Below are positions 14,779 to 18,314 of a stretch of DNA of 45,314 nt, one piece after another; position 1 is the stretch's first letter, and every line of letters begins with the position of its first letter. Origin of the DNA: Candidatus Woesearchaeota archaeon. GTDB taxonomy: Archaea > Nanobdellota > Nanobdellia > Woesearchaeales > ARS49. The notes beneath the pieces are model-generated. The model saw only the letters and a program-made list of their open reading frames with translations. It searched no databases and was not told where the DNA came from. The stretch is taken from the NCBI GenBank assembly GCA_014729505.1, contig WJJS01000018.1, forward strand, positions 1 through 45,314, in the 5' to 3' direction. Both the position numbers and the translations under genes were made by a program.

Positions 14779-14810
14779 GGTTTTGCTTGCACAGGCTCCT
14801 ATCCACAACG

Positions 14811-14819
14811 CTTAAAAAC
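14811..14819 (+). promoter_or_regulatory. TATA box of the 14841 gene
   Basis: CTTAAAAAC is centred 27 nt before the ATG at 14841. This is the reason for placing the start there rather than at 14787. Confidence 0.5.
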
Positions 14820-14840
14820 ACGACAACACCGAGCGACATC

Positions 14841-15317
14841 ATGGAAACCTACACTCCACAAGCCTTGCAAGCGATGCGCGAACAATTCCGACGACAACAC
14901 TATCCGGAAATTCACGCAGAAATCGAAGGCATCCCTTTTTCCTATTTTGTCCTGCCACAATCACTCAATCCCGATCTAGAAGATTTTGCCTTTTGCATGC
15001 AGCACGAACAGGACCGCACACAACATCTCTACGGCGTAAGTGATAATCTGCCAGAACACCTGCGACCTTTTTGGGCAGTGCACGAAGTCATAGAGTACCG
15101 CGAACACGAAACAACACGCGGACGATGTCGACGAGCTCTAAAACGAGAATTGACAATGATTCCGCAAACACTGCAAGAAGAATACCTTCCCCGACGAAGA
15201 GCGTTCTTTGCACGACTCATCGCGTACGCCAGTCAGCACGGATATGCACAAGACGATATCAACGAATTTCGCGCAAGCCTAGAACATCTCGAACAGGAAT
15301 GCAAAGATAAGCTTTAA
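14841..15317 (+). CDS. Hypothetical soluble protein, His/Glu/Arg-rich
   Basis: A 158-residue protein I do not recognise. It is predicted to be mainly helical, with no signal peptide or TM. A His-Glu cluster, 'FWAVHEVIEYREHETTRG' (about residues 80-97), stands out and could bind metal, in the manner of HExxE-type helices. A second helix reads LERREL-like charged repeats towards the end (RASLEHLEQECKDKL). The start at 14841 follows the promoter spacing; an in-frame ATG at 14787 would add 18 residues. It is followed after 25 bp by the ThiI-like gene, whose TATA box overlaps this gene's stop. Confidence 0.7.
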   Translation: METYTPQALQAMREQFRRQHYPEIHAEIEGIPFSYFVLPQSLNPDLEDFAFCMQHEQDRTQHLYGVSDNLPEHLRPFWAVHEVIEYREHETTRGRCRRALKRELTMIPQTLQEEYLPRRRAFFARLIAYASQHGYAQDDINEFRASLEHLEQECKDKL

Positions 15318-15342: not shown

Positions 15343-16134
15343 ATGACCGTTTTTATTGTTCGCTATGCAGAAATAGCACTCAAAGGAAAGAATCGAGGAC
15401 GATTCGAACACCAACTCATTCGCAACATAAGGGATTGTGCAGCCTATCACGGAGCAACAATTGACAAGATCGAGCGATTGTACGGCCGCATCCTCGTCTG
15501 GGGAGAGCGGCTAGAAGTCCTGCGCACCGTGTTTGGCATTTCAAGCATCAGTCCGGCACAGGAATGCGAGCGTAACATCGACAGCATGTACACTGCCGCG
15601 CTGCAACTCGTCAAGAAAAGGGCGCCTGAAACATTCTGTTTGAAAACACAACGATTAGACAAAACCTTTGCCCACACGAGTATGGAAGTGAGTAAAATCA
15701 TCGGCAAAAAAATGGAACAACAAACACACATCCCTGTCAACCTACAACAAGCAGCACTCACCATAGGGATAGAAATCATGCCAAAACACGTGCTTATTTT
15801 TAGCGAAAAAATAGAATGCTTTGGAGGACTTCCCGTCGGCGTTGACAGTATAGCGCACATAATTGTACAACACAAAAAAGACGTCCTGGCAGGACTGCTC
15901 ATGATGAAACGAGGATGCCAGCTTATCTGCCAGGACCATCCATACACCAGAATACTGCAATCCTACGGTCAGCGAGAAATGCACAAAAAAACACCGTTTC
16001 ACATCGCATCTGACAATAACGGTCGCATCACGGACTACCATCCGACCACCTTTTATCCGCTAATCAGTTATACAGACGAGGAGATAACACATGAAGTTGA
16101 CAATTTTCAACAAGTGCTCGACGATCTCCACTAA
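15343..16134 (+). CDS. ThiI-like THUMP protein with degenerate, shortened PP-loop domain
   Basis: ThiI makes 4-thiouridine at position 8 of tRNA, using an N-terminal ferredoxin-like domain, a THUMP RNA-binding domain and a PP-loop ATPase. Here the first two are intact (residues 1-160): FIVRYAEIALKGKNRGRFE, 'RNIRDCAAYHGATIDKIERL', VFGISSISPAQE, 'HTSMEVSKIIGKKMEQQT', then FGGLPVGVDS at 160-169. The PP-loop that should read SGGxDS is replaced by QHKKD while the flanking LPVG and LMMKRGC are kept. Only about 70 residues follow instead of roughly 180, ending with a recognisable YPLISYTDEEI. It is thus catalytically dead by the usual rule but probably still binds tRNA. The next gene, an intact PP-loop thiolase, overlaps it by 44 bp. 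Confidence 0.88.
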   Translation: MTVFIVRYAEIALKGKNRGRFEHQLIRNIRDCAAYHGATIDKIERLYGRILVWGERLEVLRTVFGISSISPAQECERNIDSMYTAALQLVKKRAPETFCLKTQRLDKTFAHTSMEVSKIIGKKMEQQTHIPVNLQQAALTIGIEIMPKHVLIFSEKIECFGGLPVGVDSIAHIIVQHKKDVLAGLLMMKRGCQLICQDHPYTRILQSYGQREMHKKTPFHIASDNNGRITDYHPTTFYPLISYTDEEITHEVDNFQQVLDDLH

Positions 16135-16999
16135 ACGTACAGGAGATGCGAAAACACTCAAAGACATTGAGGACCGCGTAGCCCGCACGATAACAGAACA
16201 CCATATGATCGAACCCCGCGGCAACGTGCTAGTAGCCGTGAGCGGAGGAAAAGACAGCACCGTTCTCCTCTCTATACTTCACAAGCTCGGTTATAAGGTC
16301 ACGGCCATTACAGTAAATTCTCACATCGGATGCTACAGCGACGAGAGCCTATCCTGTATCAAAAAAGTATGCAAAGATCTCAACATCACACTGCACGTCG
16401 CCTCCTTTGTCGATAATTACGGCAGCAGTGTTTGTTACATCACCGACGTGCTTAAGGAAAAAGGAAAACCATGGGGCACCTGCACCGTATGCGGCGTACT
16501 GCGACGGCGGCTCATCAACAAAGCGGCACGGGATCTTGGATCTACAACAATAGCACTAGGCCACAACATGGATGATGAAGTGCAAGCATACCTCATGAAT
16601 GTATTTCGCAACAGAACATCACTCAATGCAAGACTGGGCCCAGTACCAGGCATTGTCGACCATGCACAATTCGTTTCACGCATCAAACCACTCTACTACA
16701 TTACAGAAGAAGAAACCACATACTATGCTCAAGCAAAAGGATTTCCCGTAAGATACGGCGATTGTCCCTGCGCCGTCGACAGTTACCGCTTTGCAATAAA
16801 AAAATTCATAAAAGCAAACGAACAAGCATATCCACATCTTCGCAAACACGTTCTTGAGCATTTGCAACAACATCTTGCAACATATCAACAACACACAGAC
16901 GTACAGACACCAAAAGAATGCACGCAATGCGGAGAACCAAGCTCAAGCACTATGTGCCGCAGCTGTGTTATCCTTAGAGCGTTCAAGGAGTCGCCGTAA
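16091..16999 (+). CDS. TtuA/Ncs6-family tRNA 2-thiolation ATPase
   Basis: A 302-residue adenylating thiolase of the TtcA/TtuA family. The PP-loop SGGKDS sits at residues 51-56 (LVAVSGGKDSTVLL). The cysteines expected to hold an Fe-S cluster are present in GTCTVCGVLRRR and GDCPCAVDSYRF. The 'LGHNMDDEVQAYLMN' substrate-loop motif is present, and a C-terminal zinc finger reads CTQCGEPSSSTMCRSC. The N-terminal zinc finger usual for TtuA is missing; only one Cys lies before the 'IEDRVARTI' helix. The start overlaps the ThiI-like gene by 44 bp, so the two are coupled. The target (U8, U54 or U34) cannot be read directly; the partner favours s4U8 or a merged function. The tail overlaps the convergent pseudouridine synthase gene by 57 bp. 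Confidence 0.9.
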   Translation: MKLTIFNKCSTISTKRTGDAKTLKDIEDRVARTITEHHMIEPRGNVLVAVSGGKDSTVLLSILHKLGYKVTAITVNSHIGCYSDESLSCIKKVCKDLNITLHVASFVDNYGSSVCYITDVLKEKGKPWGTCTVCGVLRRRLINKAARDLGSTTIALGHNMDDEVQAYLMNVFRNRTSLNARLGPVPGIVDHAQFVSRIKPLYYITEEETTYYAQAKGFPVRYGDCPCAVDSYRFAIKKFIKANEQAYPHLRKHVLEHLQQHLATYQQHTDVQTPKECTQCGEPSSSTMCRSCVILRAFKESP

Positions 17000-17668
17000 A
17001 TCATCAACTTCCTTTTTAGACAAGTAACGCCACATACCCCTCTGAAGCTTAGTCAGACGAAGATTGCCAATACGAACGCGCCGAAGCGACAAGACCTTGT
17101 ACCCAATGCGTTCAAAAATTCGTCGAAGAATGCGTTTTCTACCCTCATGAAGTATCACTGAAAATTTCCTTTGAGCACCCCTCACTTTCATCTTCACCGG
17201 CCTGCCATCAAGAGGGACTCCCTTATGCAAACGCAGACGATCACGCTCACTCAAAGATTTGTCAATAACAATCTGATACTCCTTTTCGAGTTCAAAAGAT
17301 GGATGAAGAACCATATTCGCAAGTTCACCATCGTTTGTCAATAACAATAATCCTTCACTATCCTTATCAAGCCTTCCGACGGGAAATACACGAACAGGGA
17401 CCTGTACCAATTCCATCACGGTCGCTCTTCTCTTCTCATCATTAAGCGTCACTACATACCCTTTAGGCTTGTTGAGGATAATATAGACCTTCTTTTCGAT
17501 ACGAATCCTTTTGCCATCAACCATCACGACATCCCTTTTTTCCACCGCGTCACCAAGCGAGGCCACTTTACCATTGACAAGAACATGACCCTGACGAATA
17601 AGATCCTCACAGTATCGACGAGAACCAAAACCTGCCTGGGCAAGAATACTTTGCAAACGCGTAGCCAT
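16943..17668 (-). CDS. RsuA/RluB/RluF-family pseudouridine synthase
   Basis: A 241-residue rRNA pseudouridine synthase of a mainly bacterial family. The S4 RNA-binding domain (residues 2-60) reads RLQSILAQAGFGSRRYCEDL and 'GHVLVNGKVASLGDAV'. The catalytic domain has ILNKPKGYVVT, catalytic Asp101 in VGRLDKDSEGLLLLTNDGEL, and 'HEGRKRILRRIFERIGYKVLSL'. The ATG at 17668 is chosen because homology starts there and a TATA box lies 27 nt upstream. Archaea usually use TruB-, TruD- and Pus10-type enzymes, so this is probably a gene of bacterial origin. Its last 19 codons are antisense to the TtuA-like gene. Confidence 0.93.
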   Translation of the reverse strand: MATRLQSILAQAGFGSRRYCEDLIRQGHVLVNGKVASLGDAVEKRDVVMVDGKRIRIEKKVYIILNKPKGYVVTLNDEKRRATVMELVQVPVRVFPVGRLDKDSEGLLLLTNDGELANMVLHPSFELEKEYQIVIDKSLSERDRLRLHKGVPLDGRPVKMKVRGAQRKFSVILHEGRKRILRRIFERIGYKVLSLRRVRIGNLRLTKLQRGMWRYLSKKEVDDLRRLLERSKDNTAAAHSA

Positions 17669-17690
17669 GCACTGGCAGAACAATTCATAA

Positions 17691-17700
17691 CCTATAAGCG
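17691..17700 (-). promoter_or_regulatory. TATA box of the pseudouridine synthase gene
   Basis: CCTATAAGCG on the plus strand (CGCTTATAGG on the minus) is centred 27 nt before the ATG at 17668. Confidence 0.5.
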
Positions 17701-17713
17701 TTTCGCACGACAA

Positions 17714-17744: not shown

Positions 17745-18314
17745 ATGCGCGACATAGTCATACCACAAGGAAACGAAAAGGAATTTCTCATCCAGGCACA
17801 AAGCCTTGGTTACGACGAGTTATGGTTTCTCTACGAGAACAAGAAACAATTCTTTACCACTTCGTCTCCAATTCCAATAAAGAACATTCTGATTACCAAG
17901 ACGCGTCAAACACAAAAGACAGCCATGCCCGTCACGATAGAGACCGCAAGAAATGCAGTAGAACATATACGACCAGCAATCATCTACGGCGTAGAAGAAC
18001 ACACACCAAAAGACTATATCCATCAACGAGGAAGCGGACTCAACCACATCATCGCTCGACTCGCGGCAAAAAACAACGTCGCCTTTGGACTAAGCTTTGG
18101 ACAAGTCCTTCGTGCAACTAGCAAACGCCCAGCAATACTTGGACGCCTGAGCCAAAACATACAACTCTGTAGAAAATTCGGCGTATCAATGATTATCGGT
18201 TCTTTTGCCAGCACTCCTGATGAGATGAGATCGCCCGGAGACATTGCAAGTCTCTTCACAGTTTTAGGAATGCATGCTGCAGAGATCCGACAAGCGCAAA
18301 CAAGTAGTCTTTAA
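17745..18314 (+). CDS. rnp3: RNase P protein component 3 (Rpp30)
   Basis: A protein subunit of archaeal RNase P, which trims the 5' leader from pre-tRNA; it pairs with Pop5 in the holoenzyme. The 189-residue protein has the TIM-barrel-like landmarks: MRDIVIPQGNEKEFLIQA, 'LGYDELWFLYEN', HQRGSGLNHIIARLAAKNN, 'AFGLSFGQVL', LGRLSQNIQLCRKFGV and 'ASTPDEMRSPGDIASL'. It is transcribed away from the pseudouridine synthase gene with its own promoter. It ends five bases before the convergent 12-Cys protein gene. Confidence 0.95.
   Translation: MRDIVIPQGNEKEFLIQAQSLGYDELWFLYENKKQFFTTSSPIPIKNILITKTRQTQKTAMPVTIETARNAVEHIRPAIIYGVEEHTPKDYIHQRGSGLNHIIARLAAKNNVAFGLSFGQVLRATSKRPAILGRLSQNIQLCRKFGVSMIIGSFASTPDEMRSPGDIASLFTVLGMHAAEIRQAQTSSL

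Follow-up and report, generated by a model that had tools for sequence, protein, structure and literature searches.

The window analysed here is a stretch of 45,314 nucleotides from a Candidatus Woesearchaeota archaeon, lying on contig C13 of a 1.05 Mb genome assembled into 34 contigs and rated 100% complete. It contains two overlapping genes of the forward strand that are both related to tRNA thiolation. The first (ORF1, 15343-16134) encodes a protein of 263 amino acids that was recognized by Pfam and TIGRFAM profiles, structure alignment and an AlphaFold model (pLDDT 86) as the N-terminal half of ThiI (hereafter N-half). As proposed in the initial annotation, it retains the ferredoxin-like domain (residues 3-70, 15349-15552; PF22025, ThiI_fer, 1.3e-15) and the THUMP domain (residues 76-153, 15568-15801; PF02926, 2.7e-10), which are followed by a shortened and degenerate remnant of the Rossmann-like PP-loop domain (15850-16131), delimited by alignments and the AlphaFold model. 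The loss of the active site was likewise borne out. Alignment to 4kr6, 2c5s and relatives places the sequence QHKKD (15868-15882) where SGGxD(S) is expected, and the PP-loop of ORF1 is considered dead because this segment aligns with the SGGID segment of Thermotoga maritima ThiI (4kr6). Both the intact SGGxDS PP-loop and the GQVASQT motif are absent from ORF1 in the structure alignment, and compared with one-piece ThiI the protein falls short by about 120 residues. Consistently, the ThiI model TIGR00342 covers ORF1 at profile positions 2-199 of 373 only, scoring 126.8 bits where the cut-off is 264.5. The top match in the PDB, both by sequence (5e-25) and by fold (TMq 0.83), is PH1313 (1vbk). 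An ORF of 176 amino acids without assigned function (14787-15317) ends 25 bases upstream of the N-half gene and possibly belongs to the same operon.

The second gene (ORF2, 16091-16999, forward strand) encodes a TtuA/NcsA-like tRNA thiolase of 302 amino acids and overlaps ORF1 by 44 bases. The overlap is genuine, as codon 3, a TTG, is the sole later in-frame start ahead of the conserved region. ORF2 matches the TtuA model NF049949 at 1.2e-50 with 172 bits, below a curated cut-off of 450 that is reached by no genome of the phylum set described below, and the NcsA model with 152 bits. Structures of PH0300/TtuA align to it at 2e-38 over chain residues 30-289. The description of this protein in the initial annotation holds: the profile and structure alignments reveal an intact SGGKDS PP-loop (16241-16258), three cysteines of the Fe-S type (in CTVC and CPC) and a C-terminal zinc ribbon, and the N-terminal zinc finger is missing since the TtuA structures align only from chain residue 30. 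The finger is also absent from many relatives without any ThiI. Both ORF1 and ORF2 are conserved in related genomes, and the family matches are too strong to be due to chance. ORF2 is the sole member of the TtuA family found in a search of the genome. On the basis of its profile and structure matches and of the co-occurrence data, it is judged to be a separate enzyme rather than the missing half of ThiI, most likely the s2U thiolase of the organism acting at position 34 or 54.

Several further genes of the window were read by eye only. An ORF on the reverse strand (16943-17713), which overlaps the 3' end of the TtuA-like gene, reads as a bacterial-type pseudouridine synthase of the RsuA/RluB group, unusual for an archaeon. 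Directly beyond it, an ORF at 17745-18314 resembles the p30 subunit of RNase P, so that RNA-processing genes appear abundant in this region. The segment 19009-31529 encodes a series of large, secreted, cysteine-rich proteins of up to 1657 amino acids and, after these, several small proteins whose N-termini carry pilin-like hydrophobic stretches.

A search of the same genome with the ThiI PP-loop family uncovered an intact stand-alone ThiI PP-loop domain of 207 amino acids on contig C9 (G000:C9:62020-62643), with PF02568 matches of 2.5e-48 and 7.8e-48. The protein consists of the PP-loop domain alone, with SGGFDS, TGESLGQVASQTL and a single retained C-terminal cysteine (GPEMCNILGPKHPAT), a candidate for the catalytic cysteine that aligns near the position of the DCC or single-cysteine motif; the CxxC motif is absent. 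Its best matches in the PDB are the ThiI proteins of Bacillus anthracis (1e-32) and T. maritima (4e-30), its AlphaFold model (pLDDT 92.6) matches 4kr6 with a TMq of 0.93, and TIGR00342 was hit with 164 bits over 174-366. The genome search found neither a one-piece ThiI nor any ThiI-type THUMP protein besides ORF1. The tRNA-Leu encoded within the window has U8. Relatives of the stand-alone protein are annotated just as 'hypothetical protein' (PRK08349/NF006222) and are of more than one type, carrying either the CxxC plus cysteine that is known from the Fe-S ThiI of methanogens (PMC5372739), a DCC motif or, as in the species of the window, a single C-terminal cysteine. In the taxonomic family f1, stand-alone halves come from two clades, one of the DCC type (L048, L050, L054, L057, L058, L059) and one of the single-cysteine type (the copy of the species itself, L003:5021-5644), as if one catalytic partner had been exchanged for another around an N-half that remained in place.

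Relatives were searched as two sets of genomes, the larger of which comprised 279 genomes of the phylum, each at least 85% complete, that were examined for the N-half, the ThiI PP-loop domain and TtuA. The two halves of ThiI occur together almost exclusively: 70 genomes have both, six the N-half only, nine the stand-alone gene only and 194 neither. The stand-alone gene is thus present in 70 of the 76 genomes with an N-half and in 9 of the 203 without one (odds ratio 251, Fisher p = 3.5e-48, counts that ignore kinship). One-piece ThiI and the separate pieces exclude each other, 54 of the 55 genomes with one-piece ThiI having neither piece and the single exception (G267) having both kinds. Counted by taxonomic family, the stand-alone gene occurs in 26 of 28 families with an N-half versus none of the 27 families with one-piece ThiI only. 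The tree offered no more than two supported independent pairs for a phylogeny-corrected sign test, which had no power. Among the six N-half genomes in which the stand-alone gene was not detected, one (G099) is rated 100% complete and the others 87-92%; fragmentation can explain some of these six and of the nine genomes with the stand-alone gene only. The split form of ThiI (70 of 279 genomes) is about as frequent in the phylum as the one-piece form (55 of 279), and most likely recurs, as judged from the sequences, across this whole phylum of tiny archaea. TtuA follows a different distribution. It is found in 70 of the 76 genomes with an N-half and in 153 of the 203 others, an odds ratio of only 3.8, and it also occurs in 51 of the 55 genomes with one-piece ThiI and in 100 of the 140 genomes without any ThiI. 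Four of the six N-half genomes that lack TtuA have the stand-alone ThiI domain (G005, G091, G243, G273). TtuA was therefore rejected as an obligate partner of the N-half.

The best explanation, to which we assign a probability of about 80%, is that ThiI is split in this organism and that the gene in the window encodes one of the two halves: the N-half would bind tRNA and dimerize, and the stand-alone PP-loop protein would thiolate U8. ORF1 is most likely the subunit responsible for tRNA binding and dimerization. With its ferredoxin-like and THUMP domains, it would hold the acceptor stem and the CCA end of the tRNA, and its dead PP-loop remnant may provide the dimerization surface that pairs with the second protein. 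The C9 protein would then adenylate U8 of the bound tRNA and install the sulfur, giving s4U8. In the homodimeric ThiI of T. maritima, the N-terminal ferredoxin-like domain (NFLD) and the THUMP domain of one subunit hold the tRNA by its acceptor stem and CCA end and position U8 at the PP-loop domain of the second subunit, and the dimer interface is formed mainly between the PP-loop domains (PMC4041423). As catalysis by one-piece ThiI already takes place across the homodimer, a split demands little of the mechanism, and for the same reason a tRNA-binding chain with a dead PP-loop shell and a chain with a live PP-loop would together make a workable enzyme. Literature searches among freely accessible papers returned no report of a split ThiI and none on ThiI in connection with DPANN.

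The initial annotation had also envisaged that one protein binds the tRNA and a second one performs the chemistry. This general idea is well supported; it had, however, cast the overlapping TtuA-like protein as the second partner, the pair replacing ThiI, an assignment that we regard as improbable and that the co-occurrence data shift to the stand-alone PP-loop protein. It is true that the two genes overlap in the window and that, in this family, the finger-less TtuA gene overlaps the N-half or directly adjoins it in G007, G020, G025 and G003. Where coordinates were usable, TtuA was located within 3 kb of the N-half in 33 of 52 genomes, compared to 4 of 31 for one-piece ThiI (p = 8.5e-6) and 2 of 51 for the stand-alone half. 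The pair expected by the annotation thus recurs in relatives as neighbouring genes, yet TtuA is widespread without ThiI and missing from six N-half genomes. It also adjoins intact one-piece ThiI in G080, G101, G120 and G129, and the stand-alone half in G117. In the large family f62, linked N-half and TtuA genes are mostly on opposite strands. The complementary losses read from the two genes, a dead PP-loop in one and a missing finger in the other, dissolve in the wider comparison: inspection of the TtuA N-terminus in 47 genomes showed the finger to be lost in 8 of 17 with an N-half versus 16 of 30 without it (p = 0.77), and many TtuA genes linked to the N-half keep it. The search for an intact ThiI elsewhere in the genome, which the annotation had named as a finding that would count against a replacement of ThiI, came most of the way to that outcome with the intact catalytic domain on C9.

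The synteny between N-half and TtuA is nonetheless real and is not explained by the split-ThiI model; it also counts against this model that N-half and stand-alone PP-loop genes are mostly unlinked in Nanoarchaeota. The synteny could be accommodated, together with the co-occurrence of N-half and stand-alone gene, by a shared adaptor that presents tRNA both to the stand-alone ThiI domain for s4U8 formation and to the TtuA-like Fe-S thiolase for a second thiolation; a THUMP partner subunit acting in trans has a precedent in Tan1/THUMPD1 with Kre33/NAT10 (PMC9957541). We consider such a double role unlikely, as most genomes have a TtuA that works without an N-half and the co-regulation of thiolation genes would yield the same gene order. 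Some functional or even direct tie between N-half and TtuA is possible because their genes adjoin each other much more frequently than those of one-piece ThiI and TtuA do. The neighbourhood is best read as a tRNA-thiolation cluster that is conserved but not exclusive, since TtuA also resides beside one-piece ThiI, where no chemistry is missing. Scarcely credible is the notion that the N-half is a decaying, non-functional remnant of ThiI and that the stand-alone protein does something else, for example as a QueC-like or unrelated PP-loop enzyme. The uninformative labels of the stand-alone relatives would be compatible with it, but 15 divergent N-half sequences have preserved their reading frame and RNA-binding domains along with 19 invariant residues, the two genes are present or absent together, and the stand-alone protein aligns best to ThiI and carries the SGGxDS and GQVASQT motifs.

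The split state arose more than once. The well-supported branches require a minimum of five label changes for the N-half and of three for the PP-loop domain, and a single origin is accordingly not favoured; both trees are quick ones, and L189 and L049 resemble one-piece genes cut off at a contig end. An example from outside the Woesearchaeota is a Thermococcaceae genome (G344), in which a PH1313-like dead N-half of 314 amino acids, 65% identical to PH1313 in the N-terminal part, overlaps an intact ThiI PP-loop gene of 194 amino acids. Both halves sit in the trees among the one-piece ThiI of Thermococcus and apart from the Woesearchaeota splits, which argues that this split arose separately. 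Many Thermococcaceae have a one-piece ThiI plus an extra stand-alone PP-loop gene (SSGIDS) nearby, suggesting an order of events in which the PP-loop domain was duplicated as a separate gene and the copy in the fused chain decayed afterwards. In the Thermococcus loci L184, L196, L207, L245 and L340, this extra gene is located closely 3' of the one-piece ThiI. In the regions examined of the Pyrococcus-like Thermococcaceae G336, G360, G364 and G370, the stand-alone gene only was present.

N-halves with a dead PP-loop are also encoded in Thermoplasmata, namely in the Thermoplasmatales chromosome CP070836 (L198, 9989-10873) and in L155, L199 and L202. In one complete Thermoplasmatales chromosome (G334) the dead N-half is present and a stand-alone ThiI PP-loop gene was not found; the best match is a different PP-loop protein, with GQRPMSQ replacing GQVASQT, and the N-half might have another partner there. 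A Thermoplasmata PP-loop protein of 305 amino acids with GQRPMSQ adjoins a ThiF/E1-like gene (L257) and is a possible candidate for this alternative partner.

The split-ThiI reading makes a single predicted enzyme out of two groups of uncharacterized proteins, the PH1313-like dead ThiI proteins and the PRK08349-like stand-alone PP-loop proteins, and suggests a function for 1VBK, whose structure was released in 2005 and whose activity was still unconfirmed when reviewed in 2023. It further implies that a homodimeric enzyme with cross-subunit catalysis came apart on more than one occasion into separate chains for catalysis and for binding. The TtuA neighbourhood is a caution against equating conserved gene neighbours with functional partners.

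Among known systems, PH1313 of Pyrococcus horikoshii (1VBK), described as a ThiI-like protein lacking conserved ThiI residues and with unconfirmed activity (PMC9957541), resembles ORF1 in its NFLD-THUMP architecture, its dead PP-loop motif and its shortened catalytic domain. It differs in belonging to the Thermococcales, where the partner gene overlaps in the clear Thermococcaceae split examined (G344), whereas the two genes are unlinked in the species of the window. The one-piece ThiI proteins of T. maritima (4KR6), B. anthracis (2C5S) and Methanococcus maripaludis possess the same domains as both genes of this species taken together, and the catalytic step of the one-piece enzyme crosses the dimer (PMC4041423) as it would in the split form; here, catalysis and tRNA binding appear to be distributed over two genes, with a dead PP-loop domain in the putative tRNA-binding chain. 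Compared to the methanogen ThiI (PMC5372739), the stand-alone half of the species lacks the CxxC motif. ORF2 shares SGGKDS, three cysteines and the C-terminal zinc ribbon with the 2-thiolases TtuA/NcsA (PH0300, 3VRH/5MKO; Thermus thermophilus, 5GHA; 6SCY) and differs from them by the absence of the N-terminal zinc finger, a loss that is common throughout the phylum with or without ThiI. The Tan1-Kre33 and THUMPD1-NAT10 pairs, finally, resemble the split-ThiI model in that a THUMP protein binds the tRNA on behalf of a distinct catalytic protein (PMC9957541), although they catalyse acetylation instead of thiolation and their catalytic domain is unrelated.
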